From contig CAMLIA010000019.1 of NCBI GenBank assembly GCA_946479905.1, positions 1-37,430 on the forward strand: a stretch of DNA of 37,430 bases, written 5' to 3'. The notes under the pieces are model-generated. The model was given only the letters and a program-made list of their open reading frames with translations, searched no databases and was not told the origin of the DNA. Below, in pieces: positions 306 to 17,167 of this stretch. The translations under genes and the position numbers were made by a program. The DNA comes from an uncultured Frankiales bacterium (lineage in GTDB: Bacteria > Actinomycetota > Actinomycetes > Mycobacteriales > SCTD01). The stretch's first letter is position 1. Each line of letters opens with the position of its first letter.

Positions 306-2546
306 CTAGGGAGTCGAGGTGCTGGAGGGCGCGGTCGAAGGGGTCCCCGTGACGGTCGGGTCGGGACTCGCCGTGGAGCTCTCCGACGGCGAGGGAGCGG
401 CCGACGGCGTCGTGGACGGCTCGAGGGACGGGCTCGACGTCGCGCTCGGCGAGGCCTGCTGGGAGGGCACGGTGAGCGGGCTCGGAGTGGCGCTGGCCGT
501 GGCCGTCGCTGTGGTGACGCCGTCCACCAGGCCGGCGCCGACCAGCACGGAGAGCACCTGGTCCTGGACCTCCTTCACGGTCGCGAGCAGCTGCGCCGGA
601 GCGAGGCCGTCGACCCGGTCGAGCCCGGCGAGCGCGCTCTGGAGCTGCTGCTGGACCACCTCGCTCGGCACGCTGTTGAGCGTGACCACGAGCTGCACCG
701 CCATCGCCGTGGTGAGGCAGCGCAGGCAGTTCCCGTTCGCCGCGACGGCGGCGTTGACCGGTGTCACGACGCTGCTGTGGCCGACCACCAGGACGACCTG
801 GAACGACACGGCCACCGTCGTGCACGCCGTGCAGCTGGCGAGCGCCCAGGCGTCGTTGACGCTGGTCACGGGAGCCCCGTCGGTGACGGTGACGAGGGCG
901 TAGGCCACGTCGTACACGACGGCGCCGTCGCGGGTGTTGACCGCCAGCGCGCGCGTCTCACCCGGCCGCACCTGGTCGGGCAGGGCGAAGGGCAGCGCGC
1001 GACCTGCGCCGCCCGTGCTGCTGGTCAGGACGGTCCGCAGGCTGTCGCCCTGACGCGTCAGGAGCAGGACGGGGTGGTCTGCGGCAGCCGCGCCGCGGGG
1101 CACCATCGCCAGCGCCAGCTGACGGTGCGGTACCGGTGCCGGGTCGGTGCGGGCGACGCTGTGCAGCAGCGACGTCACCGTGCCGCCCTCGTCGCCGCGC
1201 ACGGGCGAGTACTGCCCGGCCGGCCACCACGCCCAGGCGAGCAGGGCCACGACCAGCCCAGCCGCCAGGACAGCCGCGCTGCGAGCGACCGGGCGGCCGT
1301 CCGTCCGGCGCCAGGTGCGGGTCGTGGTCCGGTGGACCAGGCGCCCGACCAGGAACGCGGTGCCGACCACCGGCAGGGCAAGGGCGAGCAGGCGCAGCAG
1401 CCCCGCGCCGACGCCGAGCAGGTCGCCGCGCTCCGCCGCGGAGCCGAGGTGCGACCCCTGCACCTGCCCGCTGTCCCACGCCGTGGTCAGCAGGTGCGGG
1501 AACACCAGCACTGCGGTGAGGAGCAGGGCTGCCAGGACGGGTACGACGACGGCGACCCAGCCGGTCACGATCCAGCGCGCGCGGCGGGTCAGCGGCGACG
1601 GCGTCGCGCGGTGCCACGGGAGCAGCCGCCGGAGCGTCGGGGTGAGGTGGGCGTACAGGTCCGGGACCCCGGTCCAGTCGGCGAGGATGTGGTAGCCGTC
1701 GGCGCGCATCACCGGCGTCAGCTGGTGCAGCATCTGCAGCAGCTGGGTGGCCACGCCGAGCAGCAGGGCGTCCTCGTGCGTCGCGAGCCACAGCCCGGTC
1801 ACGACCACGGCGACCAGCGCGTTGAAGTACAGGCCCCCGAGGTCGACCCGCAGCCGGCCCCGGCGGTCGAGGCGGTAGGCGTCGTCGACGTTGGTGTAGA
1901 ACGCCGGCCACACGAGGTAGACCCCGAACCCCATCGCCCCCGGTTGGGCGCCCCCGTAGCGACAGGCGGCGGCGTGACCGAACTCGTGGAAGCCGGCGGA
2001 CAGCACGGTGAGGGCGAAGACGCCCAGCAGCAGGCCAGGTGTCTGGAAGGCGCGGTGGGTCGCCGACGCCAGGCCCTTGTCGACGAGCACGAACCAGCAG
2101 ACGCCGACGAAGCACGCGAGGACCGGCCACAGCAGCACCGGGGTGAACAGCGCCGCGAACGGGGTGGTCAGGCGACGGGTGGTGCGAGGGTTGGACACCA
2201 CCACCTTCCAGTGCAGCGCCAGCAGCGGGTTGCTGACGGGTGCGCTCCGCACGTCGCTCCCGTCGAGCAGCCCGAGGTCGCGGAGCTTGCCTGCCAGCAG
2301 CGCCACGTCCTCGGGGGTCACACTGCGCCCGGTGCGGTCAGCGAGCGCCACCGCGAGCTCGGGAGCGTCGGACCTTCCGTCGATGAGGTCCAGCAGGGCG
2401 TAGAGCAGTGGCGTGAGCTGCACGGTCTGCCCGTCGGCCCGTCGGACGAGCGCCGTGCCGGCGCTGTAGCCGGAGCCGTCCAGCGCGCCGAGGAAGTCGA
2501 CTCCCTCGGCGCGCTGCGGCCGGTCGTGCTGGGTGGGGGCGGTCAC
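306..2546 (-). CDS. PqqD-like / M50-type membrane zinc metalloprotease (YydH-like)
   Basis: This 746-residue integral membrane protein (GTG start) has three parts. Residues about 15-100 resemble a PqqD-like winged-helix module of the kind that binds precursor peptides. Residues about 130-440 form a multi-spanning M50 peptidase core with HEFGH at 187-191 and a second metal-ligand motif, PVMRADGYHILAD, at 278-290 (Asp283). The C-terminal part carries two CxxC pairs (C572/C575 and C607/C610), 31 residues apart, then a Ser/Thr/Pro-rich tail from about 680. M50 enzymes cut substrates in or near the membrane. The gene starts one base after the stop of the repeat-protein gene, so translation is probably coupled and that protein is the obvious candidate substrate or partner. 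The protease assignment rests on visible motifs; the peptide-maturation role is inference. Confidence 0.75.
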   Translation of the reverse strand: MTAPTQHDRPQRAEGVDFLGALDGSGYSAGTALVRRADGQTVQLTPLLYALLDLIDGRSDAPELAVALADRTGRSVTPEDVALLAGKLRDLGLLDGSDVRSAPVSNPLLALHWKVVVSNPRTTRRLTTPFAALFTPVLLWPVLACFVGVCWFVLVDKGLASATHRAFQTPGLLLGVFALTVLSAGFHEFGHAAACRYGGAQPGAMGFGVYLVWPAFYTNVDDAYRLDRRGRLRVDLGGLYFNALVAVVVTGLWLATHEDALLLGVATQLLQMLHQLTPVMRADGYHILADWTGVPDLYAHLTPTLRRLLPWHRATPSPLTRRARWIVTGWVAVVVPVLAALLLTAVLVFPHLLTTAWDSGQVQGSHLGSAAERGDLLGVGAGLLRLLALALPVVGTAFLVGRLVHRTTTRTWRRTDGRPVARSAAVLAAGLVVALLAWAWWPAGQYSPVRGDEGGTVTSLLHSVARTDPAPVPHRQLALAMVPRGAAAADHPVLLLTRQGDSLRTVLTSSTGGAGRALPFALPDQVRPGETRALAVNTRDGAVVYDVAYALVTVTDGAPVTSVNDAWALASCTACTTVAVSFQVVLVVGHSSVVTPVNAAVAANGNCLRCLTTAMAVQLVVTLNSVPSEVVQQQLQSALAGLDRVDGLAPAQLLATVKEVQDQVLSVLVGAGLVDGVTTATATASATPSPLTVPSQQASPSATSSPSLEPSTTPSAAPSPSESSTASPDPTVTGTPSTAPSSTSTP

Positions 2547-2547
2547 G

Positions 2548-3168
2548 TCACGGTTGCGTGACCGAGGCGTCCTGCGTGGCGGTGGCCGTGGCGTCGACGT
2601 TGTCGAGGTCCTGCTGGATGATCGCGGTCTGCGGCGCGAAGGCGGTGGCGTGCGAGTCGACCGAGCCGACGTTGGCAGCGACCGCCGCGTCGATCGGCGC
2701 GGCCACGTTGGCGTTGGCGGCGACAGCCCCGTCGATGGGTGCCGCGATGTGCGCGTCGGCGTTGACGTCCACGTTCACGTCGAGCAGGTTGCCGCCGGAG
2801 GTGAGGTCGCCGACGCTCGTGGACGAGCCGTCCGTCGGCGTGGCGACCGGGGCCGCGGTGCCCTGCGTGACGTCGGACGTCTGAGGCGCGTTGGCGTGCG
2901 CGGCGCCGGCCAGGTGCTGGTCGATGAGCGTCTGCTGCGGCGCGGCGGCCGTGGCGTCCGAGCCGAACGACAGCACGTTCGCCGACGCAGCGGCGTCGAT
3001 CGGGGCAGCGACGTTGAGGTTGGCGGCCACCGCAAGGTCCACGGGGGCCGCGAGGTCGAGCCCGAGGTCGATGTTGGCGTTGAGGTCGAGGAGGGACATG
3101 ACCTCCTTCTGAGGCAGCGGCGTGCCGGTCTCGGCTGCCAGCTCCTGAGGGGTGAGCGGCTCGGACAT
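2548..3168 (-). CDS. Internally duplicated Ala/Asn/Asp-rich protein, candidate precursor or substrate of the M50 protease
   Basis: A 206-residue acidic protein with no Cys, no Arg and a single Lys (K21). After an N-terminal segment with LPQKEVMSLL at about 18-27, two 47-residue units (40-86 and 142-188) align without gaps at 32 identical positions. Each unit contains shorter repeats of the form NVAAPIDAAxxAN and ends in an APQ..I..Q.L segment. The units are separated by a Gly/Ser/Thr/Pro linker (about 100-127). I see no signal peptide or membrane segment. ATG 3168 is preceded by a strong AGGAGG. I recognise no characterised family. Repeat architecture, a leader-like N-terminus and immediate linkage to a PqqD-like/M50 protein suggest a processed peptide precursor, but a structural or adhesive role is possible. 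Confidence 0.7.
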   Translation of the reverse strand: MSEPLTPQELAAETGTPLPQKEVMSLLDLNANIDLGLDLAAPVDLAVAANLNVAAPIDAAASANVLSFGSDATAAAPQQTLIDQHLAGAAHANAPQTSDVTQGTAAPVATPTDGSSTSVGDLTSGGNLLDVNVDVNADAHIAAPIDGAVAANANVAAPIDAAVAANVGSVDSHATAFAPQTAIIQQDLDNVDATATATQDASVTQP

Positions 3169-3253
3169 GAGGCCTCCTGGGGTCGGGTGCCTCGTTGCTG
3201 CCCGCGGGACGAATGCCTCAACCGGGACATCTGCCTAGCGTCGGCCGAGCAGC

Positions 3254-4441
3254 TCAGGTGCGCACCGGGCGCTCGTCCCTCGATCGCTGCGCCGGGACGT
3301 GCAGGTCGCCACCTGAGCTGCTGACCGACACCGCGTTGCGGGTGGTCTTCGCCCGGTAGAGCTCGTGGTCGGCCTTGGCCATCAGCTCACCTGGGCAGGC
3401 GGACGCGCCCGTCGCCGAGGCCACGCCGAGCGAGAGGCTGATCCTGACGTGACCCCGCAGCATCGCGTCCTCGCTCTCGGCGTCGGACCGCAGCCGCTCG
3501 GCCACGTCGAACGCCGCTCCGGCCGTCATGCCGGGCAGCAGCACGGCCAGCTCGTCGCCGCCGATCCGGGCGACCCGCCCCCGGGACCCCACCCGCCGGG
3601 TCACCAGCGCCGCGACCGAGCGCAGCGCCTCGTCGCCGCTCGCGTGGCCGTGCAGGTCGTTGATCTGCTTGAACCTGTCGACGTCGATGAGGACCACCGC
3701 CACCGCCGACCCGTCGGTTGCGGCCGTCTCGCAGGCGCTCCCCAGGTCGGCGTCCCAGGCCCGCCGGTTGGCCAGGCCCGTGAGCGAGTCCTCGTACGTC
3801 TGCCGCTGCAGCTGGTCGAGCAGCTCGGCGCTGCGGGCCTGCTCGTGCTCCAGCCGGCACCGCATCCCGAGCTCTCGTGCGGTGAGCCGGCTGCGCTGCG
3901 CGTGCGCGATCACGGCGATGAGCGAGGCGGTGCCGAGGTAGCACGCGCAGGCGGCGATGTCGTGCCCGGACAGCGGCGCGGGCGCCGTCAGCGCGCAGCT
4001 GGCCAGTGCGCCCCAGGTGACAGCCACCAGGGCCAGCGTCCACGTCACCGAGCCGGCCATCAGGCAGCCGCTCGCGTACAGGGCGAGGGAGAACCCGAGC
4101 AGGTAGAACTCGCGCGCGTCGCCAGCTCGCACCACCATCCAGGCGATCTCCGCCTGGACGACCGACAGCATGCCGAGAGCCAGCAGCTCCGGGTGCTGCC
4201 GGCCCCAGGGGTGGCGCCGCAGCAGCACCACTCCGGCCAGCAGCGGCAGGTCGCACAGCAGCCGCAGCCGCAGGAAGGCGGCGGCGAACGCGGGCTCCAA
4301 CGAGCGGTCGAAGACCGTCCAGGCGGGTACGACGAGCAGCGCCGTGACGCCGATGAGCAGGGCGCTGGTGAGGGCGCGTGCCCGGATCTCGTCGCGGTAG
4401 GTGAGCTCCAGAGCCAGCGGCTCAGCACCGGGCACCGTCAT
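3254..4441 (-). CDS. Membrane-anchored diguanylate cyclase (GGDEF domain)
   Basis: A 395-residue protein with about six hydrophobic segments in residues 20-180, a short coiled linker (about 185-215) and a C-terminal GGDEF domain. The domain shows DSLTGLANRRAW at 218-229, a metal-binding Asp in LIDVDRFKQIND (D253) and the signature as GGDEL at 294-298. GGDEF enzymes make cyclic di-GMP from two GTP. The final Phe-to-Leu change is tolerated in some active members, so I expect activity but cannot prove it. I see no RxxD inhibitory site in its usual place before the signature. ATG 4441 is chosen because GGGGGAGGCGGG lies just upstream; longer in-frame extensions lack such a site. The gene diverges from the DUF523-like gene. 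Confidence 0.85.
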   Translation of the reverse strand: MTVPGAEPLALELTYRDEIRARALTSALLIGVTALLVVPAWTVFDRSLEPAFAAAFLRLRLLCDLPLLAGVVLLRRHPWGRQHPELLALGMLSVVQAEIAWMVVRAGDAREFYLLGFSLALYASGCLMAGSVTWTLALVAVTWGALASCALTAPAPLSGHDIAACACYLGTASLIAVIAHAQRSRLTARELGMRCRLEHEQARSAELLDQLQRQTYEDSLTGLANRRAWDADLGSACETAATDGSAVAVVLIDVDRFKQINDLHGHASGDEALRSVAALVTRRVGSRGRVARIGGDELAVLLPGMTAGAAFDVAERLRSDAESEDAMLRGHVRISLSLGVASATGASACPGELMAKADHELYRAKTTRNAVSVSSSGGDLHVPAQRSRDERPVRT

Positions 4442-4662
4442 CCCGCCTCCCCCGAAGCCGCCTGTCGCCGTCGCACGGAGGATGCCGTACGACAAGGGCC
4501 GAAGGGCACCGCACGAACGGGTCATTCTGGGCATAGTCCACGAGACGGTCGCGGCAGGTGCCATTGCGCCATTCGGCCCCCTCCCAGCAGCTGCCGTTGG
4601 GCCCGCCACGCGAGGACGTTCGCCCTCGCGGGGACACGCGCTCGGGCCGCAGAATCCCTTGC
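4442..4662. other. Divergent intergenic region
   Basis: These 221 bases separate the diguanylate cyclase gene (minus) from the DUF523-like gene (plus) and must hold both promoters. A Shine-Dalgarno sequence for the cyclase sits at the left edge and a CAGAAT hexamer (4650-4655) near the right edge. I see no other gene, repeat or clear operator. Confidence 0.4.
4650..4655 (+). promoter_or_regulatory. Putative -10 element of a leaderless promoter
   Basis: CAGAAT ends 7 nt before GTG 4663. It is a weak match to TANNNT, but the spacing equals that of the other leaderless candidates here, and no Shine-Dalgarno sequence precedes the GTG. Confidence 0.3.
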
Positions 4663-6833: not shown

Positions 6834-7991
6834 TCACCCGCCGCTCGTGCTCCCGGCCCGGGCCGCTGACCAGCGGGCGACCACCCGAGGGGTGGAGCGC
6901 AGGATCGCCCCCCGCGGCTCCACGACCTCGACGACCTGCAGCCCCCGGAGCCGCTCCAGCACGACGGTGAGCGCCGTCCCGAGCTGGGAGCGGGCCAGGT
7001 TCCACCCGGGGCAGAACTTGGGCCCGACGCCGAAGGTGAGCACCTCGGCCTCGTCGCGGTGCGGGTCGAACGTGTCGGGGTCGTCGAACACCGACGGGTC
7101 GCGGTTGCCGGCGGCCAGCGCGGCGAGGAGCAGCGTCCCCGCGGGCACCGCCGTGTCACCGACGGTCGCGTCCTGGGTCGCGAGCCGGGGGAGGACCGCC
7201 ACGGGTGGCTCGACGCGCAGCGCCTCGCTGACGAGCAGTGAGACGTCCACGTCGTGCAGCTCCGGCCGCGGCAGGACCAGCGCGAGCAGGTTGCTCATCG
7301 CGTCCGACGTCGTCGTGGCGCCGACGGCATACAGCAAGCGGACGTGCGCCAGCACCGACTCCTCGTCCATGCCGGCGCCGAGCAGCTGGGACAGCACGTC
7401 GTCCTGCGGGTCCGTGCGACGCGCGGCCATGACGGGCCGCACGACCTCGTCGATGGCGGCCGCGGCCCGAGCGGCACCGGCGGGATCCGCGACGTGCGCG
7501 AGCAGCGCCCGGGTGACGGCCCGCTGCCGGTCCTCGCTGCCCGCAGGCAGTCCGAGCTTGCGGCTGATCGCCCAGTAGGGCAGCACGTTCGCGAGCTCCG
7601 CCACCAGGTCGGCCTCGCCGCGGTCGGCGAAGCGGTCGACGACCTCGTGGGCGAGGGGCAGCAGCTGCTCGTCGATGAACCTGCTGACCGGGCGGGACCG
7701 GAAGGCAGGCGTGGCCTGCCGCCGGACAGCGACGTGCTCCTCGCCGTCCATGCTGATGAAGGTGCGGCCGATCGCCGGTTCCACCTGGAACTGGTAGACC
7801 GGACCCCCGGGGAAGCTGGTCTCGTCGACCATGAAGGCCTTGAGGTCGGCGTAGCGGCTCACCAGCAGCGCGGGCCGGCCGAGCAGCGTGGCGGGGGTCA
7901 GCCCGGGGGACCGGCGAGCCTCGCCGAGCAGCTGGTGCAGCTCGGTGCCCGGCAGCTCGGCGGAGGCCAGGTCCGTCGGTGTCAGTGCCAC
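6834..7991 (-). CDS. Cytochrome P450
   Basis: A 385-residue soluble bacterial P450. The heme-ligand signature TFGVGPKFCPGW has Cys327; EALR (256-259) is the K-helix ExxR. The I-helix motif reads VGATTTSD (223-230), so Thr occupies the place where many P450s have Asp or Glu for proton delivery. P450s use O2 and two electrons from a ferredoxin system, and no ferredoxin gene is adjacent. GTG 7991 lies within the last codons of the upstream SDR gene (10-base overlap). The gene is last in the KstR-box operon, so a steroid or steroid-like substrate is likely but inferred. I cannot place it in a CYP family; it does not obviously match CYP125 or CYP142. Confidence 0.9.
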   Translation of the reverse strand: MALTPTDLASAELPGTELHQLLGEARRSPGLTPATLLGRPALLVSRYADLKAFMVDETSFPGGPVYQFQVEPAIGRTFISMDGEEHVAVRRQATPAFRSRPVSRFIDEQLLPLAHEVVDRFADRGEADLVAELANVLPYWAISRKLGLPAGSEDRQRAVTRALLAHVADPAGAARAAAAIDEVVRPVMAARRTDPQDDVLSQLLGAGMDEESVLAHVRLLYAVGATTTSDAMSNLLALVLPRPELHDVDVSLLVSEALRVEPPVAVLPRLATQDATVGDTAVPAGTLLLAALAAGNRDPSVFDDPDTFDPHRDEAEVLTFGVGPKFCPGWNLARSQLGTALTVVLERLRGLQVVEVVEPRGAILRSTPRVVARWSAARAGSTSGG

Positions 7992-8743
7992 CGGGCGGGC
8001 CAGTCGTCGGGCCGCAGCAGCGCCTCCGTGCCGCCGTCGCAGAGCAGGACCGAACCGCAGAAGAACCCACCGGAGTCGCTGAGCAGGAAGGCGATGAGGG
8101 CGGCCAGCTCCTCGGCCCTGCCGGGCCGGCCCAGCGGCACGGGCAGCGCGCCGATCAGCGGCCCGATCTTCTCGTCGGCGGCGACGGCCGCCGTCATGGG
8201 CGTCTCGATCAGCCCGGGCGCGAGCGCGTTCAACCGGATGCCGTCAGCCGCCCAGGACGGTGCGTTCCGTCGTACCCACCGGGCGACGGCTGCCTTGGTC
8301 GCGGGGTAGGCGGCGGTGGAGTCGGCGCGGTCGGCGACCTCCCTGGCCAGCTGCTCGTCGCCTGCGAGGCAGGCCGCCATGAGCTCGAGGTCCCAGGTCG
8401 GGTAGATCGTCACGCTGTTGCTGCTCATCAGCACCACCGACGAGGGGTTCCGCAGCTTGGGGCGCAACCCGGTGAGCACGTCGACGGACCCGAAGTAGTT
8501 GACGCTGGCGAGCAGCGATCCGGGACGCCCGGTGAGTCCGACGAGGCCCGCGCACAGCACGGCGCCGTCGAGTCCGTCGGGAGCGGCGGCGACGACGGCG
8601 GCGCGGCCCTCGGGCGTACCCAGGTCGGCGGTGATCTCGCCCTCGTGCAGGTCGACGCCGACCACCTCGTGCCCCTGAGCCCGGAGCAGCTCGGCGGTCG
8701 CCCGGCCCATGCCACTGGCAGCGCCGGTGACGAGGTACCTCAC
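7982..8743 (-). CDS. Short-chain dehydrogenase, 3-alpha-hydroxysteroid dehydrogenase-like
   Basis: A 253-residue NAD(P)-dependent SDR. The N-terminal cofactor loop is TGAASGMG, the active-site pair is YPATK, and the C-terminus has RLNALAPGLIETPM. A degenerate LCAG replaces the NNAG motif, and there is a long variable segment between strand 5 (VVLMSSNS) and the active-site Tyr. This layout resembles the Comamonas 3-alpha-HSD/carbonyl reductase subgroup, so oxidation or reduction of a steroid alcohol is plausible. The start is GTG 8743, overlapping the SRPBCC stop as GTGA, and its stop overlaps the P450 start. These overlaps imply translational coupling. Confidence 0.82.
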   Translation of the reverse strand: MRYLVTGAASGMGRATAELLRAQGHEVVGVDLHEGEITADLGTPEGRAAVVAAAPDGLDGAVLCAGLVGLTGRPGSLLASVNYFGSVDVLTGLRPKLRNPSSVVLMSSNSVTIYPTWDLELMAACLAGDEQLAREVADRADSTAAYPATKAAVARWVRRNAPSWAADGIRLNALAPGLIETPMTAAVAADEKIGPLIGALPVPLGRPGRAEELAALIAFLLSDSGGFFCGSVLLCDGGTEALLRPDDWPARWH

Positions 8744-9222
8744 TGCCGTTCGGCCCAGAGGCGTTCGGCGCGTTCCTTCAGGGCGTACGCCGTGGCGTTG
8801 AAGCCCGCGGTCACCCACTCGTGCTGCATGGCGAAGACGACGTCCGCGCCGGGGCCCTGGAAGACGTCGGTGGTGCGGTAGGAGGACCTGCCGTCGCCGA
8901 GGTCCTCGACCCACTGGTCACGGATGGCGAGCATGGGCGCGAAGCTGTCGCCCGTGTCGTACTGGAGGTGGTGCGGTGCGTCGATGACCCGCATGTGCTC
9001 GAGCGTGGTGAACGACTCGCCGGGCTTCGCGGGATCCGGCAGGTGCAGCAGCACGTCGGAGCCGAGCTCGAGGACGGCCTCCACCTTGACGGTGAAGGGG
9101 TTCCACTCGGGGTAGCGCTCGAAGTCGACGACGATCGACCACACGAGGTCCTGCGGCGCGTCGATCTCGACCGTGTCGCTGACGATGGTGGTCGCGTTGA
9201 GGACGGCGCCGCGGCTGCTCAT
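8740..9222 (-). CDS. SRPBCC (START/Bet v1-like) family protein
   Basis: A 160-residue single-domain protein with the typical N-terminal segment DTVEIDAPQDLVWSIVVDFE followed by YPEWNPF, and a C-terminal helix. SRPBCC domains form a deep hydrophobic pocket that binds lipids, sterols or polyketide-like ligands; some are cyclases or carriers. Here a steroid intermediate is a reasonable ligand given the neighbours, but this is inference. ATG 9222 overlaps the upstream SDR stop as ATGA, and its own stop overlaps the next SDR start. Confidence 0.8.
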   Translation of the reverse strand: MSSRGAVLNATTIVSDTVEIDAPQDLVWSIVVDFERYPEWNPFTVKVEAVLELGSDVLLHLPDPAKPGESFTTLEHMRVIDAPHHLQYDTGDSFAPMLAIRDQWVEDLGDGRSSYRTTDVFQGPGADVVFAMQHEWVTAGFNATAYALKERAERLWAERQ

Positions 9223-9992
9223 GCCGGCATGTACTCCCCGCCGTTGACGTCGAGGATCGCGCCGGTCACCTCGGAGGTGTAGTCGCTGAGCAGCATGAGG
9301 ATGGCACCGGCGCACCGCTCGTCGGTCGGGATCCTGCCGAGCGGGTTGCGGGACGCGATGTCGTCGTAGACGTCCTGCTCGGTGACACCGCGGTTCTCCG
9401 ACTCCATCTGCAGGTAGAACCGGACGCCAGGCCCGTCGAGCCAGCCCATGATCGCCTGGTTGACGCGGATGTTGTGCTCGCCGAGCTCCAGGGCGAGGAA
9501 CTGCGTGGCACAGGTCATGGCGGCCTTGGCGATGGCGTACCCGCCCTCGCCCTTCATCGGCTTGCGCGTCGTCATCGTGCCCACGTTGACGACCGAGCCG
9601 TGGCCGGCGGCGATCATGTGCGGCTTCGCGAGCCTGGTCATCTGCAGCGCGCCGTGCACGATGACGTCGAAGGAGCGGCGCAGCGCCTTCTCCGGTGTGT
9701 CGAGGAGGTCGTGGAAGCCGGGGTGCGCGTAGGCGGAGTTGACCAGGCCGGTGACCTTGCCGAAGCGCTCGATCGCGGTGTCGATGACCTTCGCGCAGTC
9801 CTCCTCCTTGCGGACGTCGCAGGCGACGGCGACGGCCTTGCCGTCGTTCTCCTTCTCGATCTGCTCGGTGACGTTGCCGGACCGCGCCGCCATGACGACC
9901 TGGGCGCCCTCGTCGATGCAGCGCTGCGCCAGCTTCGCGCCCATGCCCGCGCCGACGCCGGTGATGACGACGACCTCGTCCTTCAGGATCAC
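9219..9992 (-). CDS. Short-chain dehydrogenase with altered NNAG motif
   Basis: A 257-residue SDR with cofactor loop TGVGAGMG, the usual DV at the end of strand 3 (ACDVRKE) and active-site YAIAK. The structural NNAG motif is replaced by NSAY, and the Ser position before the Tyr reads NVGTMTT, where a Thr may serve as the Ser. SDRs of this type oxidise or reduce secondary alcohols with NAD(P). From memory, a KstR-regulated SDR (Rv3530c) sits between DUF1214 and sulfotransferase-like genes in M. tuberculosis, so this may be its counterpart; that needs alignment. The start is GTG 9992, overlapping the sulfotransferase stop as GTGA. Confidence 0.85.
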   Translation of the reverse strand: MILKDEVVVITGVGAGMGAKLAQRCIDEGAQVVMAARSGNVTEQIEKENDGKAVAVACDVRKEEDCAKVIDTAIERFGKVTGLVNSAYAHPGFHDLLDTPEKALRRSFDVIVHGALQMTRLAKPHMIAAGHGSVVNVGTMTTRKPMKGEGGYAIAKAAMTCATQFLALELGEHNIRVNQAIMGWLDGPGVRFYLQMESENRGVTEQDVYDDIASRNPLGRIPTDERCAGAILMLLSDYTSEVTGAILDVNGGEYMPA

Positions 9993-11128
9993 AGGTAAGC
10001 CCTTTCGTAGAAGTCGAAGTCCTTCGCGAGCTGCTCCTTCGAGAGCCCGAAGTCCTCGGCGGTGTAGCTGTGGGAGCCGTGCTTCTCCTGGCGGTTGATC
10101 TCCAGGTAGTCGTTGAAGGCAGCGAGGTCGGCGTCGGTGACCTCCAGGCCGAGCTGCTGCATCACGCTGGTGACGGTCTCGAGCGGCTCAGCCACGGTCG
10201 ACTTGAAGGGGACGTCGATGAAGCGCTCGGGGCGCCGCTTGCGCACCTCGTCGAACTGCCTCAGCGACTCCTGGAACCGCTCGTTCCAGTAGTGACCGAT
10301 CTTCACGGGGTCGCCGGCGTCGGAGTACTGCGCCGTCATGCTCGACACCATGCTCGCGTAGCTCGGGACGGCGGACGTCGGCGAGCGGTGCGTCATGACG
10401 ATCTTGCAGTCGGGGAACTCGTCAAGGGTCGTGTCCACCGCGGTGAGGTGGTGCGGGGACTTGAGCACCCACTTCTTCCCGGCCCGCTCCGGGTCCTGCC
10501 ACTGCAGCACCTGCAGCCACTCGCGCAGCTCGGAGTAGGCCTTCGACTGGTCGTAGCCGCGCAGCCAGATGCCGTAGGACGGCACCCAGTAGAAGGAGTC
10601 GTAGGACATCGCCGTGAAGGTGCGGTCGAGCAGGAGGATGTCCTCCTCCGGCCCGTCCCAGACGACGGTGTGGATGTCGGCGAACTCCGGCGAGAGCTCG
10701 AGGAACATCTCCATCATCTTCTTGGCCTTGCCCTTGCGGATCTCCGCCGCCGGCGACTCACCGGGGAACGGCAGCGGGTAGCTGCACTCCCAGGACAGCG
10801 TGCTGGTGAGCTGCGGGCTGGCGGACATCAACCGGTGCAGCAGCGTGCTGCCGGTGCGCGGCAGGCCGAGGATCTCGGCGGCGACTTCCACCGGGGTGTC
10901 GAGGATCTCGGGGTGCTCGGCCTGCAGCTTGCGGAGACGCAGCCGGTCGACGAGCAGCGCCGTCAGCCGGCGCTCGGTCATCTGGTGACCGAGCTCGGAG
11001 AGCTGCGCCTCCTCGTTCAGCGCCTTCACCAGGACACCGAGCGGCTCGAGGAACCACTCGTCGCCGAAGTCGTCGGTGCCGGCCTTCGCTACCGCGTTGG
11101 CGCGGAGCGTGTCGATGCTGAGGGTCAC
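9989..11128 (-). CDS. Sulfotransferase family protein
   Basis: A 379-residue protein with the PAPS 5'-phosphosulfate loop as GLPRTGSTLLHRLM (about 88-101) and a later MTHRSPTSAVPS segment that fits the 3'-phosphate-binding Arg/Ser motif. Such proteins transfer sulfate from PAPS to alcohols, although many actinobacterial members are uncharacterised and may not be true sulfotransferases. From memory, the KstR-region gene Rv3529c of M. tuberculosis is of this type. GTG 11128 overlaps the DUF1214 stop as GTGA; an in-frame extension to 11344 is only antisense to the DUF1214 gene. A sulfate-adding enzyme in a catabolic operon is unexpected. Confidence 0.8.
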   Translation of the reverse strand: MTLSIDTLRANAVAKAGTDDFGDEWFLEPLGVLVKALNEEAQLSELGHQMTERRLTALLVDRLRLRKLQAEHPEILDTPVEVAAEILGLPRTGSTLLHRLMSASPQLTSTLSWECSYPLPFPGESPAAEIRKGKAKKMMEMFLELSPEFADIHTVVWDGPEEDILLLDRTFTAMSYDSFYWVPSYGIWLRGYDQSKAYSELREWLQVLQWQDPERAGKKWVLKSPHHLTAVDTTLDEFPDCKIVMTHRSPTSAVPSYASMVSSMTAQYSDAGDPVKIGHYWNERFQESLRQFDEVRKRRPERFIDVPFKSTVAEPLETVTSVMQQLGLEVTDADLAAFNDYLEINRQEKHGSHSYTAEDFGLSKEQLAKDFDFYERAYL

Positions 11129-12195
11129 GAGAGCTTCACGACCTTCGTCGTCGGGAGCGGGTGGTCGTCGGTGCCGACCCACCGCAGCAGGGCGGTGCCG
11201 GTCGCGTGCCCGGTGGTGTCGATCCAGTTCCCGTAACCCGGGTCCTTGGCGGCCACGACCAGGGTCAGGGTGCCGTCGTCGTTGAGCTTCGCGGTGTGCT
11301 TGTTGACGGTGATGGACTTGTCCCAGTCCATGGACTCCATCCACCAGTTGTCGAGCTGGAAGTTCCAGTACGGCGCCTCGGGCACCCGCGTCTCGATGAC
11401 CCAGGCCTCGTCCGGCTGCAGGTCGAAGTACCCGTGCAGGTAGAAGATCTCGGGGTCGCCGCCGGCCTTCTGGAACATCTCCTGGCCCCAGTCGGGCAGC
11501 TCGTTCGGCCGCGTCATGAACAGCTCGGTCCAGGCCACGAAGGTCGCCGCCGTGCCGTGCACGCCGAGAGCGGTGCGCTGCAGCGAGCGGACCAGGTGCT
11601 CAGCGGTCAGCGGGGCGCGCTCGGGCGTCGGCTCCAGCCGCTCGATGTGCCACTCGCCCGGCACCTCGGTGGTGCGGTCGAGGTAGGACTCGCGCAGCAC
11701 GATCATCGTGCTGTCGACCGCGAGCGGCAGCCAGTTCTTGGCGCTGGCGGGTCGCTCCGCGGACACGAGGATCTCGACGGTGCCGTCGCTGTCGACGTAC
11801 AGGTCGTCGTTGCGGAGCTCCCCGGTCGAGGCCATCGTGCCGTCCTTGGCGTAGCGGTTGGCCTTGGACCCGAAGCTGACGTAGGCGATCGTGTTGCGGG
11901 TGCCGGTGATGCGGTAGGTGTTGGTGCCCCTGACCGGCGCGGAGTGGTAGACGTTGTCCGGGTTGTCCGCCCCGATCTTGACCAGGTCCAGGCCCTGCCA
12001 GCGCGGCCGGTCGGGGTCGGAGTTCTCGAGCGTCGCGTAGAGGCTGTTGCGCAGCAGCCGGGTCAGGTACCGGTAGCCCTCGGCGCGGTCGAGCACCGTG
12101 TCCGGGCCCTTGAGCACGACCTCGCCGGCCGCCTCGAGGGCACGGCAGAAGTCCGTCCACGCCTGACCGGTGAGAACTGCCTCGTCGGCGGACAT
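11125..12195 (-). CDS. DUF1214-domain protein, first gene of the KstR-box operon
   Basis: A 356-residue protein whose C-terminal third shows the DUF1214 pattern: YFDLQPDEAWVIETRVPEA, then YWNFQLDNWW and a final GTALLRWVG strand. The biochemical role of the family is not established. From memory, M. tuberculosis Rv3531c, in the KstR steroid region, is a DUF1214 protein next to an SDR and a sulfotransferase-like gene, as here. ATG 12195 is preferred because GAGGAGG precedes it; a GTG at 12228 lies inside the operator palindrome and is less likely. This gene heads a six-gene run of overlapping reading frames ending with the P450. Confidence 0.8.
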   Translation of the reverse strand: MSADEAVLTGQAWTDFCRALEAAGEVVLKGPDTVLDRAEGYRYLTRLLRNSLYATLENSDPDRPRWQGLDLVKIGADNPDNVYHSAPVRGTNTYRITGTRNTIAYVSFGSKANRYAKDGTMASTGELRNDDLYVDSDGTVEILVSAERPASAKNWLPLAVDSTMIVLRESYLDRTTEVPGEWHIERLEPTPERAPLTAEHLVRSLQRTALGVHGTAATFVAWTELFMTRPNELPDWGQEMFQKAGGDPEIFYLHGYFDLQPDEAWVIETRVPEAPYWNFQLDNWWMESMDWDKSITVNKHTAKLNDDGTLTLVVAAKDPGYGNWIDTTGHATGTALLRWVGTDDHPLPTTKVVKLS

Positions 12196-12220
12196 GCCCC
12201 TCCTCGCGAGTGCCCTTGGG

Positions 12221-12234
12221 TAGAACACGTTCTA
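12221..12234. promoter_or_regulatory. KstR operator (exact consensus)
   Basis: TAGAACACGTTCTA is a perfect palindrome that matches the KstR consensus TnnAACnnGTTnnA at every fixed position. The symmetry extends to 18 bases (12219-12236). It sits 26 bases upstream of ATG 12195 of the DUF1214 gene, where a TetR-family repressor would block the promoter. KstR is the cholesterol-catabolism repressor released by steroid CoA thioesters. The regulator gene itself is not in the window. Confidence 0.85.
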
Positions 12235-12262
12235 CCAGAGCGCCGCGCTCCTGGCGAGAGCC

Positions 12263-12322
12263 CCGGTGATCATTGCCCGGCAGTCGCCGCCGGCCCGCTC
12301 AGCGCCGGGCAAAGATCACCGG
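12263..12322. repeat. Intergenic palindromic element, copy 1 (ATC-wTTGCCCG type)
   Basis: Two 19-base arms (12263-12281 and 12304-12322) are inverted copies with one mismatch, CCGGTGATCATTGCCCGGC against its complement, around a 22-base GC-rich loop. It lies between the SnoaL-like stop and the KstR operator. The core GATCwTTGCCC recurs in two hairpins at 24564-24690. It could terminate the upstream transcript, though no T-run follows, or be a dispersed REP-like element. Confidence 0.65.
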
Positions 12323-12343
12323 AGTACGACGAGAGGCGCGCGC

Positions 12344-12790
12344 TCAGGCCTCGGGGGCCTTCATCGTGGCCATCATGCGGTCGAGCTCCCAGAACGCGCG
12401 CAGGCTCAGCAGCTTGCCGTCGTCGTCGATCCGGTAGGCGAAGACGCCCTCGCAGGTGGTCGTCGCGCCGCCCTCGATGGTGATGGTGATGTCGGCGACG
12501 TTGGCGCACTCGTTGCCGCAGGCGAAGGAGTCCTTGAGGTCGAAGACGATGCTGTTCGGGGCCATGTTGGCGTCCCAGAAGGCGGCGCGGCCCTCGGGTC
12601 CGTGGTGGCCCAGGCCGGTGGGGTCGATGAAGGACTTCCCGATCGGGTCCTCCACCCAGCCCTCCTCGGCCCACAGCGCCAGCCAGGCCTCCCGGTCCTT
12701 GCTCATCACGCAGCTCATCGACTCCATGGCCATGGTGCGCGCGGGGTGGTCGGAGTAGCCCTTGAACATGTCGGCGACTGCGGGGATCAC
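12344..12790 (-). CDS. SnoaL-like / NTF2-fold protein (ketosteroid isomerase-like)
   Basis: A 148-residue NTF2-superfamily protein. It has an N-terminal helical segment (SKDREAWLALWAEEGWVEDP), a middle IDPTGLGHHGPEGRAAFWDA, then beta strands with C-terminal FAYRIDDDGKLLSLRAFWEL. Members of this cone-shaped fold include steroid delta-isomerases, polyketide cyclases and hydratases. The fold is clear, but the catalytic activity cannot be assigned. GTG 12790 overlaps the LLM oxidoreductase stop as GTGA, so the two are probably translationally coupled. Confidence 0.8.
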   Translation of the reverse strand: MIPAVADMFKGYSDHPARTMAMESMSCVMSKDREAWLALWAEEGWVEDPIGKSFIDPTGLGHHGPEGRAAFWDANMAPNSIVFDLKDSFACGNECANVADITITIEGGATTTCEGVFAYRIDDDGKLLSLRAFWELDRMMATMKAPEA

Positions 12791-13656
12791 CACTTCTGGA
12801 TCACGTCCTTCGCGAAGCGCTCGATGCCGTCGACCTTGGCCTCGAGCGGACCGTCCCACGGCACGCCGTAGAAGAGCCACGGGACCGTCACGATGTCGGT
12901 GCAGCCGGCCTTCTCGAGGTCCTTGTAGCCGTCGAGCCCGTAGCGGTCGGACGGCGCGACCTGGAACTGGAAGCCCTCGATCGGCTTGCCCGCGGTGAGC
13001 AGCATGTCGATCAGCTCGTCGTGCACGGCCTTGAACTCGTCGTGGGTGATCATGGCGCTCGTCCAGCCCTGCGCGAAGCGGACGGTGCGGCGCAGCGCGA
13101 CAGGCGTGTGTCCACCCACCCAGACCGGGACCGGTTGCGACGGGGCAGGCGGCATCTTGATCTTGCCGAACTTCACGAACTCGCCGTCCCGGGACACCCA
13201 CCCGCCCTGCAGGATCTCGAGGATCGCGTCGAGCGACTCGTCGGTGCGCTTGCCGCGCCCCTCGTAGGTCTGCCCGGACCACTCGAACTCCTCCTTCAGC
13301 CAGCCGATGCCGGCCCCGAAGGTGAAGCGGTTGTTGCTGAGCACCGCCGCCGACCCCACCTGCTTGGCGAGCAGCAGCGGGTTGCGGGTGGCCACCTTGA
13401 TGACGTGGGTGAGGAAGCGGATCCGGGTGGTGACCGCCGCCATGTGGGCGACCGCCATGAACGGCTCCACGAACGGGGTGTCCTCCTGCCACAGCCGGCT
13501 GCCGTCCGCGGTGTACGGGTACGCGTCGCTCACCTGCTCGGACCAGAAGAGCGAGTCGGCGACCGCGATCTGGTGGTAGCCGTTCTCCTCCGCGGCCTGC
13601 GCGAGGGCGGCGTACTGCGTCGGGTCGGTCATGGCGACGGACATCGTGAACTGCAA
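12787..13656 (-). CDS. LLM-class (luciferase-like) F420-dependent oxidoreductase
   Basis: A 289-residue TIM-barrel protein of the luciferase-like monooxygenase superfamily. It has the N-terminal QAAEENGYHQIAVADS segment, TTRIRFLTHVIKVATRNPLL and TFGAGIGWLKEEFEWSG, all typical of the actinobacterial F420-dependent branch. Such enzymes catalyse hydride transfer or oxygenation using F420 or flavin; the substrate is unknown. From memory, the KstR-region gene Rv3520c is of the same superfamily. The start is TTG 13656, chosen because AAAGGAGAA lies directly upstream and no ATG or GTG gives a better N-terminus. It is followed by the coupled SnoaL-like gene. Confidence 0.85.
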   Translation of the reverse strand: MQFTMSVAMTDPTQYAALAQAAEENGYHQIAVADSLFWSEQVSDAYPYTADGSRLWQEDTPFVEPFMAVAHMAAVTTRIRFLTHVIKVATRNPLLLAKQVGSAAVLSNNRFTFGAGIGWLKEEFEWSGQTYEGRGKRTDESLDAILEILQGGWVSRDGEFVKFGKIKMPPAPSQPVPVWVGGHTPVALRRTVRFAQGWTSAMITHDEFKAVHDELIDMLLTAGKPIEGFQFQVAPSDRYGLDGYKDLEKAGCTDIVTVPWLFYGVPWDGPLEAKVDGIERFAKDVIQKW

Positions 13657-13680
13657 CGTGTTCTCCTTTTGCGGAGGACC

Positions 13681-14490
13681 TTAGAGCGCCGCCGCCAGTT
13701 CCGCCAGAGAGGGCGGCTCGCCCTGCCAGGTGATGCCCGGCGCGTCGAGCTCACCTGTGAGCGCGTGCGCGATCGTCGTGTAGACGTTGCGGGAGGCGAG
13801 CACGCCCGTGTGGGTGCCGCGGATCTCGACGTTGCTCGCGCCGTCCTCGAGGCAGGCCTGCCAGCGGACCACCTCGTCGTGCCGGGTGAACAGCGCGATG
13901 AGCGGCGGCAGCTCGGGGGTGAGCCCCTTGCGGAAGAACCGACCGTAGGTGCAGGCGCAGGCCGTGGTGAGGCACCCCATGTTGAGGCGGGCCGGGTCCT
14001 TCTGCAGGCGCGTGCGCGCGATCGTCGCGGCCTTCGCGAGGGTGAGGTTGGTGACGGCGAACGGCTCGTGGAGGGGGCTGTTGAGCGCGATGACCCGCTC
14101 CACCAGGTCGGGGCGCGCCGTCATGAGCGCGCGCGAGAGCAGCCCGCCCCGGCTGTGCCCGAGCAGCGTCACCTTGGCGCCGCTGGTCTCGGCGATCTCC
14201 TCCAGGCGGGGCAGCATCCGGGCCATCGTGCGGTCGGAGCAGTCGACGTGCAGGGAGATGTGCGAGGTGTGGGCGGCGTAGCCGATCCGGCGCAGCCAGC
14301 TGAGCATCACCGGCATCAGCCAGTCGCCGGCGATCGCGGGCGGGAGCACCAGCACGGGGCGGCCGTCGCCGTGCGGGATCCCCTTGCCCGCCAGCACGTC
14401 CGAGCGCAGGAAGCGGGACAGCGCGACCGGCCCGCGGACCCGCAGGGCCGCTGAGCCCAGCTGCTTCACGGCCAGGGGCAGGTCGCTCAT
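13681..14490 (-). CDS. Alpha/beta hydrolase (lipase-like)
   Basis: A 269-residue hydrolase with the nucleophile elbow GHSRGG (Ser113). Probable acid and base residues lie in LFTRHDEVVRW and RGTHTGVL. An oxyanion-type VLPPAIAG lies near residue 50. The overall pattern resembles triacylglycerol lipase/esterase-like actinobacterial proteins; the substrate is unknown. A Cys-rich MGCLTTACACTYGRFFRKG segment is unusual. It lies 19 bases after the WS/DGAT stop and 24 bases before the LLM start, so these genes likely share a transcript. ATG 14490 is the only reasonable start. Confidence 0.82.
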   Translation of the reverse strand: MSDLPLAVKQLGSAALRVRGPVALSRFLRSDVLAGKGIPHGDGRPVLVLPPAIAGDWLMPVMLSWLRRIGYAAHTSHISLHVDCSDRTMARMLPRLEEIAETSGAKVTLLGHSRGGLLSRALMTARPDLVERVIALNSPLHEPFAVTNLTLAKAATIARTRLQKDPARLNMGCLTTACACTYGRFFRKGLTPELPPLIALFTRHDEVVRWQACLEDGASNVEIRGTHTGVLASRNVYTTIAHALTGELDAPGITWQGEPPSLAELAAAL

Positions 14491-14509
14491 GATCGCAATC
14501 TAGGCGACC

Positions 14510-15919
14510 TCAGCGGACCGCGAGCAGCATCTCCTCGACAGTCGCGGGGAACTCGGCCGCCAGGTCGTCGATGTCGGGCAGCCGATCGCTGCAGGCGATG
14601 ATGCCGAAGCCCACCCGGTCGCGGTAGCTGACCACGGTGATGTTGAGACCCGGGCCCTCCATCACCGGTCCGAGGGGGTAGATCCCGTCCACCTTCGCGC
14701 CGGCCATGTAGATCTGGAAGGGCGGACCGGCCACGTTGGACAGCACCAGGTTGTGCACGACCGGGTGGAGGTCGGCGAAGCGCAGCATCGAGTAGAGCCG
14801 CGCGAGCGCTGCGGTGGTGTTGGGCGGCGCGATCTGGCCGACCCGCAGCACGAGGTCGTCGCCCATGGCCTTCTGGTCGCCCTTCGCGACCTTGTTGGCC
14901 TGGTGCACGGCCCTCAGCCGCTCGACGGGGTCCGCGACGTGGGTGCCGAGGCTCGTGAACATCGTCGACACCTTGTTCGCGGCGACGTCGGTGTCGTCGC
15001 CGCGGACGCTCACCGGGACCGCGGCGATGAGGCTGGAGTCCGGGAGCTCGTCGCGCTTGAGCAGGTAGCTGCGGAGCGCGCCGCCGGTGATGGCGGTGAC
15101 GGCGTCGTTGAAGGTCCCGCCGACCGCGGACTTGATCGCCTTCACGTCGTCGAGAGGCACGTCGACGTAGGCGACGGACCGGCCGGGCGTGATCGAGCCG
15201 TTGAAGGGCGCCCGCGGCGCGGTGAGCGGCAGGGCGCCGCCGGAGGTGTCGGCGTCCCCGACCCGACGGCCCACGATGCCGGTGACGGCCTTGATGGCGG
15301 AGATCCCCACCTGGGCGGTGTGCCACGGCCGCGTCGCCAGTCCCGTCACGGTGTGGACCGCCACGTCCAGGACGGACGGCTCCGGCTGCTGCAGCGCGCG
15401 GGCCTCCGCCTTGGCCCCCAGCAGCTCCGCCTCCGTCCGGCCCTCCGGTCCCAGGTCGAACAGCACGCTGAGGATCCGCGCGGCGCCGACGCCGTCGACC
15501 GCGCAGTGGTGGATCTTGAAGACGATCGCGGCCCGGTTGTCGGCCATGTCCTCCACGACCAGGCACTCCCAGAGCGGCCGGCTGCGGTCCAGCTGCACGC
15601 TGGCGAAGGACGCGACCTCCCTGGCCAGCTCGACCATGGTCCCGGGGGCGGGGCACTTCACCCGGCTCACGTGCTCGCGCACGTCGACGTCGGGCACGTC
15701 CACCCACACCGGGTGGTGCAGCCGGAGCATGGCGAGCGCGAGCTTCTGCCGGAACGGCTTGAGCAGGTCGAGCCGGTGCTCGAGCACCGCGATGAGGTCG
15801 TCCGCGGACCAGCTCGGGTTGTCGGTGGTGTCCACGACCAGCGTGCCCAGGACATGCATGTGGGTCGCGGGCGTCTCGAAGTAGAGGAAGCTCGCGTCGG
15901 CACCGCTCATCTCGTGCAC
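14510..15919 (-). CDS. Wax ester synthase/diacylglycerol acyltransferase (WS/DGAT)
   Basis: A 469-residue bifunctional acyltransferase of the actinobacterial family that makes triacylglycerol and wax esters from acyl-CoA. The N-terminus MSGADASFLYFE, the catalytic HHCAVDG (about 137-143) and the C-terminal VVSYRDRVGFGIIACSD are family hallmarks, and length matches. GTG 15919 is chosen because TACTGT ends 7 nt upstream; ATG 15910 is the alternative. It diverges from a LipC-like esterase gene across only 57 bases. From memory, the same two families are neighbours in M. tuberculosis (Rv0220 lipC and Rv0221), suggesting coupled storage and mobilisation of lipid. Confidence 0.9.
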   Translation of the reverse strand: MHEMSGADASFLYFETPATHMHVLGTLVVDTTDNPSWSADDLIAVLEHRLDLLKPFRQKLALAMLRLHHPVWVDVPDVDVREHVSRVKCPAPGTMVELAREVASFASVQLDRSRPLWECLVVEDMADNRAAIVFKIHHCAVDGVGAARILSVLFDLGPEGRTEAELLGAKAEARALQQPEPSVLDVAVHTVTGLATRPWHTAQVGISAIKAVTGIVGRRVGDADTSGGALPLTAPRAPFNGSITPGRSVAYVDVPLDDVKAIKSAVGGTFNDAVTAITGGALRSYLLKRDELPDSSLIAAVPVSVRGDDTDVAANKVSTMFTSLGTHVADPVERLRAVHQANKVAKGDQKAMGDDLVLRVGQIAPPNTTAALARLYSMLRFADLHPVVHNLVLSNVAGPPFQIYMAGAKVDGIYPLGPVMEGPGLNITVVSYRDRVGFGIIACSDRLPDIDDLAAEFPATVEEMLLAVR

Positions 15920-15926
15920 GCCCGCA

Positions 15927-15932
15927 ACAGTA
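15927..15932 (-). promoter_or_regulatory. Putative -10 element of a leaderless promoter
   Basis: TACTGT on the minus strand ends 7 nt before GTG 15919 of the WS/DGAT gene. The hexamer and spacing are identical to those before GTG 284. Confidence 0.4.
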
Positions 15933-15950
15933 GGGACACTCGAGGCATTC

Positions 15951-15969
15951 GTCTGCAGTTGCGGCAGAC
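15951..15969. promoter_or_regulatory. Inverted repeat in the divergent WS/DGAT - esterase promoter
   Basis: GTCTGC and GCAGAC arms flank AGTTGCG in the 57-base gap between the two divergent genes. Its position just before GTG 15977 suits an operator controlling one or both genes. I do not recognise the site. Confidence 0.35.
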
Positions 15970-15976
15970 TGGGCTC

Positions 15977-17167
15977 GTGCTCCTCGTCCTTGCCTGCCTC
16001 GGGCTGATGGCCGTGGCGAACGGCCTGCGCCCCTTCCGGTGGGCCCCGCTCGTCGTACCGTCCTTCTTCGCGGCCTGGCTGACGGTGGAGCTGGCGCCCC
16101 AGCTGCTCCTGCTCACCCTCGTCGTCACCGTGGTGCTGACGGTGACCGTCGGGGTCAGCTGGCTCGGGCTGCTGCTCACGGCTCTGGTCGTCGCGGGCCT
16201 GGTGGCGATGATCGCCGAGAGCGAGCGCGCGGCCACCCAGGCGGACGAGGCGCTGGCGGACTGGCCGGAGCCGGTCGACCCCTTCGAGCGCGACGCGGGG
16301 CCGCTGCGCCGGTTCTTCCGGCCGATGTCGTTCACGCACCCGGAGGTCGAGCGCATCGTCGACGTCGCCTACGGGGACCTGCGCCGTCACCGGCTCGACG
16401 TCTACCGGCGCAAGGACGGGGTGACCGGCGCCCCGACGCTGGTGCAGGTGCACGGCGGCGCGTGGGTCATCGGGGACAAGCGCGAGCAGGGCCGCCCGCT
16501 CATGAACCACATGGCCGCGCGCGGGTGGGTCTGCTTCGCGCCCAACTACCGGCTCTCGCCCAAGGCCACGTGGCCGGACCACCTCGTCGACGTGAAGCGC
16601 GCCCTCGCCTGGGTCCACGAGCACGGGGCGGAGTACGGCGCCGACCCCGGCTTCCTCGTCCTCACGGGAGGCTCCGCCGGCGGCCACCTGACGGCGCTGT
16701 GCGCGCTCACCCAGAACGAGCCCCAGTGGCAGCCGGGCTTCGAGGGCGCCGACACCTCGGTCACGGCGTGCGTGCCCTACTACGGCGTCTACGACATCGC
16801 CGGCGAGACCGGAACGACGGCTGCGACCCTCCGCGAGAAGCGGCTGCTCGCCCGGATGGTCATGAAGACCCGCGACCGCGCGGTCTACGAGCAGGCGTCA
16901 CCGCTGTCGCACGTGCACGGTGACGCGCCGCCGTTCTTCGTGGTGCACGGCCGCAACGACACGCTGGTCCCCGTCGAGGAGGCCCGGCTGTTCGTCGAGC
17001 GGCTGCGGGCCGCGTCGTCGAACCCGGTCATCTACCTGGAGCTGCCGGGCACCCAGCACGCCTTCGACGTGTTCCCGTCCATCCGCTCCGACCACGTCGT
17101 GAGCGCCGTCGGCCGCTTCTGCGAGCTCGTCCGCGTGCGGATGGGCCACTCCCGCCCACTTCCCTGA
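15977..17167 (+). CDS. LipC-like alpha/beta hydrolase (hormone-sensitive-lipase family) with N-terminal membrane segments
   Basis: A 396-residue esterase. Residues 1-80 are strongly hydrophobic and look like two or three membrane helices. The catalytic domain carries the HGGAW oxyanion motif (159-163), the GGSAGG nucleophile elbow (Ser233), and a late GRNDTLVPVEEARLF with the acid and PGTQHAFDV with the His. This is the hormone-sensitive-lipase (HSL) family of carboxylesterases. GTG 15977 keeps the hydrophobic region; an internal ATG about ten codons later is possible. It pairs divergently with the WS/DGAT gene. Its stop codon lies inside one arm of the long inverted repeat that follows. Confidence 0.85.
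   Translation: MLLVLACLGLMAVANGLRPFRWAPLVVPSFFAAWLTVELAPQLLLLTLVVTVVLTVTVGVSWLGLLLTALVVAGLVAMIAESERAATQADEALADWPEPVDPFERDAGPLRRFFRPMSFTHPEVERIVDVAYGDLRRHRLDVYRRKDGVTGAPTLVQVHGGAWVIGDKREQGRPLMNHMAARGWVCFAPNYRLSPKATWPDHLVDVKRALAWVHEHGAEYGADPGFLVLTGGSAGGHLTALCALTQNEPQWQPGFEGADTSVTACVPYYGVYDIAGETGTTAATLREKRLLARMVMKTRDRAVYEQASPLSHVHGDAPPFFVVHGRNDTLVPVEEARLFVERLRAASSNPVIYLELPGTQHAFDVFPSIRSDHVVSAVGRFCELVRVRMGHSRPLP

Follow-up and report, generated by a model that had tools for sequence, protein, structure and literature searches.

Chaplins are surface amyloids of Streptomyces and use Sec signal peptides. The Fap system of Pseudomonas has a different build: passages of one paper describe repeats in FapC that are split by variable linkers, with Q/N repeat spacing and a CxxC motif, a shorter homologue, FapB, suggested to be the nucleator, and a peptidase, FapD; FapC secretion requires the catalytic Cys of this enzyme, and some subsets of its family act only as chaperones (PMC6173800). 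Among producers of ribosomally synthesized and post-translationally modified peptides (RiPPs), the daptide protease MpaP is described as an intramembrane site-2 protease that carries a RiPP recognition element (RRE) as an N-terminal fusion (PMC10036551), and a passage on EpeP holds that this protease is thought both to cleave and to export its peptide (PMC10885120). Here we characterize a gene pair in a stretch of 37,430 nt (the window) from an uncultured Frankiales bacterium (contig CAMLIA010000019.1), in which two minus-strand genes separated by 1 nt encode a repeat protein of 206 aa (2548-3168) and then a membrane protease of 746 aa (306-2546). We read the pair, with a probability of roughly 55%, as the precursor of a self-assembling beta-type wall or surface protein of the functional-amyloid or chaplin kind together with its dedicated maturation protease. 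A search of titles and abstracts in the open-access literature found no paper on this gene pair, which is no proof that none exists.

A leader-bearing precursor and its protease

We kept the best 80 of the 221 relatives that a profile search of genome contigs returned for the repeat alignment, and the protease gene followed the repeat gene on the same strand in all 80, across a gap of 1-402 nt (median 39, by the chosen starts). Clustering of the neighbouring genes recovered 76 of the 80 proteases and 59 of the 80 repeat genes, and any further family reached at most 13 of the loci. The reverse survey covered 396 actinobacterial genomes drawn evenly from the phylum of G001. The long- and short-precursor queries found the same 19 genomes, the tail query 16, and the query with the RRE-M50 core 50 at E ≤1e-10. 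Within the last group, 28 matches in 25 genomes had E values of 8.6e-82 or better, the next standing at 9.3e-36, and only these 28 are called strong RRE-M50 matches below. The module and a strong match occurred together in 18 genomes, the module alone in 1, the protease alone in 7 and neither in 370; that is, a strong match was present in 18 of 19 genomes with the module vs. 7 of 377 without it. The corresponding counts for module and tail were 14, 5, 2, and 375. In a protein database clustered at 90%, the long precursor had at least 4288 relatives at E ≤0.001 (7998 candidates scored), the short precursor 4047, and the protease at least 2995 (7995 candidates scored). The repeat set leaves out L075, from an Acidimicrobiia metagenome-assembled genome in which the precursor and protease frames appear broken (1790-4659), and the protease set leaves out L046, with its unclear start, and loci where the protease runs off the contig; the L075 protease is retained among the 193 proteases. 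For alignment, 130 of 131 chosen long precursors (P0012 dropped) and 88 of 90 chosen proteases (L075 and P0241 dropped) were used.

The window precursor opens with a leader region (residues 5-30, LTPQELAAETGTPLPQKEVMSLLDLN; 3079-3156, as are all features of the pair on the minus strand) that was placed by alignment and holds the conserved LPxKEV motif; residues 17-30 were the least variable of nine stretches compared. Of 199 long proteins, 198 contain LPx[KR]E a single time and the other lacks it, giving one leader for two modules, and sister precursors share the motif E-L...LPxRxx[ML]. A regular expression written from these precursors matched 39 times in 3220 frames of at least 45 aa (269 kb), 36 times at precursor ORFs and 3 times elsewhere; the leaders of L091, L094, L095, and L102 were placed by eye rather than by aligning them to this expression. 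Leader-bearing ORFs adjoin 26 of the 28 strong RRE-M50 matches, on the same strand in 24 cases and divergently in 2 (G042, G242). As for the other two, the G173 protease on contig C2 adjoins a small basic protein only, the array of that genome being on another contig, and no leader-bearing ORF was found beside the match in G259. Behind the 26 leaders lie the present module in 16 cases, a chaplin-like core in 3 (L095, L105, L106) and other cores in 7 (L097-L102, L104). Because it is the common part of precursors with unlike cores, nearly always beside this type of protease, LPQKEVMSLL behaves as a leader, and its retention while the cores change is what recognition by an RRE predicts. A sequence-only reading of the locus had proposed this leader and had described the adjoining genes, down to the two repeats and the CxxC-x31-CxxC tail. 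Both points are borne out, and the pairing extends to other genomes when the survey starts from either gene.

The N-terminus of the protease (746 aa, recognized by profiles and model) forms an RRE domain (residues 8-97; 2256-2525) that fold comparison identifies as a PqqD-like winged helix. The PqqD-like character claimed for it earlier thus stands as a fold, and by sequence the support is mixed, with 7 of 30 protease cores matching PqqD at E ≤0.1. Profiles, alignment, and model place an M50 or site-2-type catalytic core at residues about 138-306 (1629-2135), where HEFGH (187-191), an HExxH motif, and the downstream D283 lie in transmembrane helices. The form HE[FLYM]GH is present in 187 of 193 proteases and H187, E188, H191, and D283 are invariant in the 88 aligned ones; with these residues kept, protease catalysis is probably under selection. 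It is very likely, in our judgment, that the repeat protein undergoes leader-guided processing by its partner. The cytoplasmic RRE would bind the leader through its LPxKEV block, and at the membrane the site-2-type core would remove this leader, perhaps also assisting in release or export of the product. Cutting combined with export, as proposed for EpeP, would explain the missing transporter. Alternatively, the repeat protein could be a stable folded beta protein and its partner a membrane carrier or a quality-control factor, guided by the RRE, that cleaves little or not at all; the FapD family, in the passages noted above, has chaperone-only subsets. The retained catalytic residues argue against such a carrier, which we consider improbable.

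Repeat modules and the cysteine tail

Behind its leader, the Ala/Asn-rich precursor carries two 47-residue repeats that align without gaps at 32 of 47 identical positions (score 49 vs. a maximum of 19 in 1000 shuffles). By alignment and AlphaFold2, the first module with its beta continuation spans residues 52-102 (2863-3015), with a ladder of N52, N64, Q78, Q84, Q96, and Q102, and the second spans residues 152-206 (2551-2715), with N152, N154, N166, Q180, Q186, Q199, and Q205; a low-complexity, variable linker (residues 103-125; 2794-2862) lies between them. The AlphaFold2 model consists of strands, with no helix, throughout both repeats, at a modest confidence of 67.9. Conservation at alternate positions was found in the long proteins at 70-84, 88-102, 172-186, and 191-205 (equalled in 2-8 of 20000 shuffles), and the same permutation test gave none in the linker or the leader. 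In the short precursors of sister genomes, N40, A42, P44, N46, A48, and N52, then A60, A62, A64, Q66, and Q72, are invariant, that is, every second residue, and the alternation over 40-52 and 58-72 was equalled in 27 and 69 of 20000 shuffles. Such invariance is the pattern of beta-strands with one buried face. The module as a whole is also well conserved, at 0.68 bits per column in the short precursors, lower than the leader (1.04) and the N-terminus (1.88), and in the long proteins the second module stands at 0.78 bits vs. 2.33 for the linker, the most variable part. Conservation of this degree is unlike that of typical antimicrobial cores.

These properties bear on the proposal of the sequence-only reading that the protease cuts between or within the repeats, yielding two similar peptides. 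Modules do occur as separate short proteins in sister genomes, so that single modules are viable products, and the variable linker is probably flexible. However, 174 of the 199 long proteins contain the strict module pattern two or three times (24 contain it once) behind what is nearly always a single leader, the second repeat of the window protein has no LPxKE site, and the linker offers no conserved site across the 199, the only constant feature being the G-x-LL-[DN] that starts the second repeat in 193. A cut into two peptides is therefore the least probable of the alternatives considered here, and this part of the earlier proposal is not sustained.

What that reading overlooked is a relative of the module within the protease itself. 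The tail beta domain (residues 527-625; 672-968), delimited by profile, alignment, and model, contains C572xxC575 and C607xxC610, and this CxxC-x31-CxxC motif is present in all but one of 193 proteases, the exception being L075. Its second half, residues 592-618, aligns with residues 154-180 of the repeat protein, where P158, N166, S169, S172, and Q180 fall on P596, N604, C607, C610, and Q618; this is the best gapless profile segment of all offsets (score 16.6; 1000 column shuffles reached 14.4 at most, and the profile read in reverse 9.3). The tail thus reads P-x7-N-x2-C-x2-C-x7-Q where the repeat reads P-x7-N-x2-S-x2-S-x7-Q, with Cys pairs in place of the Ser pairs of its partner, and on this alignment its second half repeats the module in a cysteine form. 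The loop at 402-422 is the most Lys/Arg-rich of the fused protease (0.31 per residue), as in cytoplasmic loops, and the separate tail proteins of L085, L087, L089, and L094 start, as read by eye, with a hydrophobic signal-peptide-like segment; on both grounds the tail beyond helix 423-441 would lie outside the membrane. The protein ends in a Pro/Ser/Thr-rich stretch (residues 683-746; 309-500) modelled at low confidence (predicted local distance difference test below 50 at 689-739 and 744-746), which is presumably of the wall-spanning type. A freed core could then leave the cell and assemble on the tail, whose Cys module, held on this stalk, would act as anchor or nucleator. A tail-domain match was also seen at G052:C617:46154-46384, in a genome that has no strong RRE-M50 match and no module match.

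Split loci, sister precursors, and neighbourhood

The 19 module genomes divide into 8 that encode two modules in one long gene, 10 with short precursors, each behind its own leader, and G243, whose precursor is divergent. Eight of the 10 short-precursor genomes carry three or four ORFs of one module each, 64-92 aa in length wherever the start is evident; in G136 and G333 a single-module ORF is accompanied by a two-module ORF that has stretches rich in Gln, Asn, and Phe. A short precursor consists of a leader (consensus GLSxEELEAQxGEQLPDREEMSL) and a module (INANxAAPVNAAVAANVLSDDSxAYANAEQxVDIDQSN). In L085 the precursors, the protease, and a tail gene follow one another on one strand, and the tail product starts like a signal peptide, continues with the Cys module, and finishes in a stretch rich in Pro, Ser, and Thr. 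Separate tail proteins occur in 6 of the 10 genomes (G007, G012, G042, G173, G184, G242), not always adjoining the array. Given this split form, the window pair is best read as a fusion in which two modules stand behind one leader and the tail is joined to the protease.

Several features of the split loci deserve mention. A small basic, Arg/Lys-rich protein without a leader, carrying a similar pattern (N-A-A-N ... SSRQRIVQ), lies beside the arrays in 7 of the 11 loci L085-L095 (L085 10388-10534; L086 9110-9325; L088 9273-9485; L089 9542-9655; L090 3821-3991; L091 1837-2010; L093 9212-9394) and beside the separate protease of G173 (L096 7263-7520); tblastn found none in the window or in the 80 long-form loci. 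L090 2989-3531 and L093 9708-10142 encode two-module relatives whose Gln/Asn/Phe-rich repeats (EQNNFIEQNN) are prion-like in composition and for which no tail gene was found. In the arrays of L091, L092, L094, and L085 the paralogues fall by eye into recurring types (AAPVNAAVAAN; AIPxNAAVAAN with ADATQ; AAPxNVAAALN), which may point to a product of several subunits. Sister precursors with a chaplin-like core (VP...ANVCG...C) occur beside an RRE-M50 protease at L095 9336-9566, L105 5714-5983, and L106 6842-7096. Three leader-bearing Gly-rich precursors with two-cysteine cores, two of them also His-rich, precede the protease at L100 4514-5911, in a genome (G375) that has true chaplins too. The same leader precedes very short hydrophobic cores (LGIPLLGLDGL-like) at L097 3016-3168, L098 757-1157, and L104 3364-3552, the products of which could be secreted peptides.

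It is conceivable that the system as a whole makes secreted antimicrobial or signaling peptides, RiPP-like and modified or not, whose leader is cut by a protease of the epipeptide or daptide type. The protease is indeed closest to the daptide and YydH/LiaK RiPP proteases, both of whose profiles (NF041824 and NF058609) match 30 of 30 protease cores at E ≤0.001; several sisters have short hydrophobic cores, and arrays of 3-4 paralogous precursors resemble RiPP loci. On the other hand, conservation of the module core is high, the 80 loci share no conserved gene for modification, immunity, or transport, although a modifying enzyme could be encoded elsewhere, the long form is present as one copy in each of 6 long-type genomes searched, and small antimicrobials do not resemble two-module proteins of 200-290 aa. 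This explanation is therefore unlikely, if less so than the carrier and two-peptide proposals. An assembling product is suggested, indirectly, by the beta ladder, the conservation of the core, the multiple modules per locus or chain, the chaplin-like sisters, and the Fap parallel, and we put the odds that the product is an assembling structural protein at about even. A cross-beta amyloid nature may likewise be indicated, again indirectly, by the beta alternation with its N/Q ladders and by a FapC fold match. The FapC match is weak, the stretches 36-50, 52-64, and 152-166 of the long proteins show no alternation in the permutation test, hhalign did not recover the similarity between tail and repeat module, and single leaders are in places poorly supported, with hidden Markov model E values of up to 0.053 (L098) and L104 resting on the regular expression.

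In the window, a GGDEF gene lies upstream of the pair on the same strand, and the ten other ORFs scanned are ordinary; the scan of these 11 neighbours found a methyltransferase and SDRs, and no aminotransferase or DUF-RRE. Minus-strand ORFs at 6834-16687, including a P450, SDRs, a sulfotransferase, a SnoaL-like protein, and a wax ester synthase/DGAT, perhaps form a lipid pathway.

Comparison with known systems

The window precursor has no match in Pfam or NCBIfam, the short precursors and two separate tails gave nothing above curated family cut-offs, and the 130 long precursors gave only scattered weak matches (best GLTT, 6e-5, in 1 member); neither the precursors nor the separate tails are covered by any curated family. 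The window protease matches the daptide protease family NF041824 at E 2e-31 (109.5 bits, below the 300-bit cut-off) and NF058609 (YydH/LiaK) at 51.6 bits, below the cut-off of 225. Like the daptide protease, it combines an N-terminal RRE with a site-2 protease, and leader-bearing precursors are adjacent. Unlike daptide loci, the 80 loci have no conserved aminotransferase, dehydrogenase, or methyltransferase neighbour, the leader is LPxKEV/LPxRE rather than ELExMEAP, the precursors are of 200-290 aa or in arrays, and the protease tail has a Cys module. NF058609 we take to be EpeP, whose class is presumably related to this protease. An M50 maturation protease is common to both systems, whereas the protease here adds an RRE-like domain and a tail, and the 80 loci conserve no gene besides these two, although they were not scanned with a radical SAM profile.

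The chaplin profile fits three sister precursors, each scoring above all of 1000 shuffles (L095 narrowly), and 8 others were negative. The best of the three has the 17-residue Cys spacing of chaplins and reaches E 0.015 with Pfam ChpA-C (PF03777; 15.5 bits vs. a cut-off of 21); it is absent from the genome-wide ChpA-C matches at E 0.01, and the window protein has no PF03777 match. A leader and an RRE-M50 protease here take the place of the Sec signal peptide of chaplins. FapC and FapB of Pseudomonas parallel the pair in their repeats with variable linkers, Q/N spacing, CxxC, the nucleator role suggested for the shorter homologue, and a peptidase in the system; the repeat protein has no sequence match in the PDB, which includes FapC entries, and Fap differs in relying on Sec, on FapF in the outer membrane, and on a peptidase of the C39 type. 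In fold and catalytic features the pair thus conforms to RRE-like and M50 proteins, and it falls below the daptide, epipeptide, and chaplin cut-offs. Tentatively, it might represent a separate actinobacterial route to amyloid-like surface proteins, in which cytoplasmic precursors without Sec signals have their leader read by an RRE-site-2 protease that passes the module outward, nucleation falls to a Cys copy of the module, fused to the protease or separately secreted, and a single leader/RRE code is used for many unrelated cores, those of chaplin type among them. If so, an RRE leader code would drive a surface-protein system of common soil actinobacteria, in array and fused forms and with a built-in candidate nucleator, and the processing that RREs guide in RiPP biosynthesis would extend to structural proteins.
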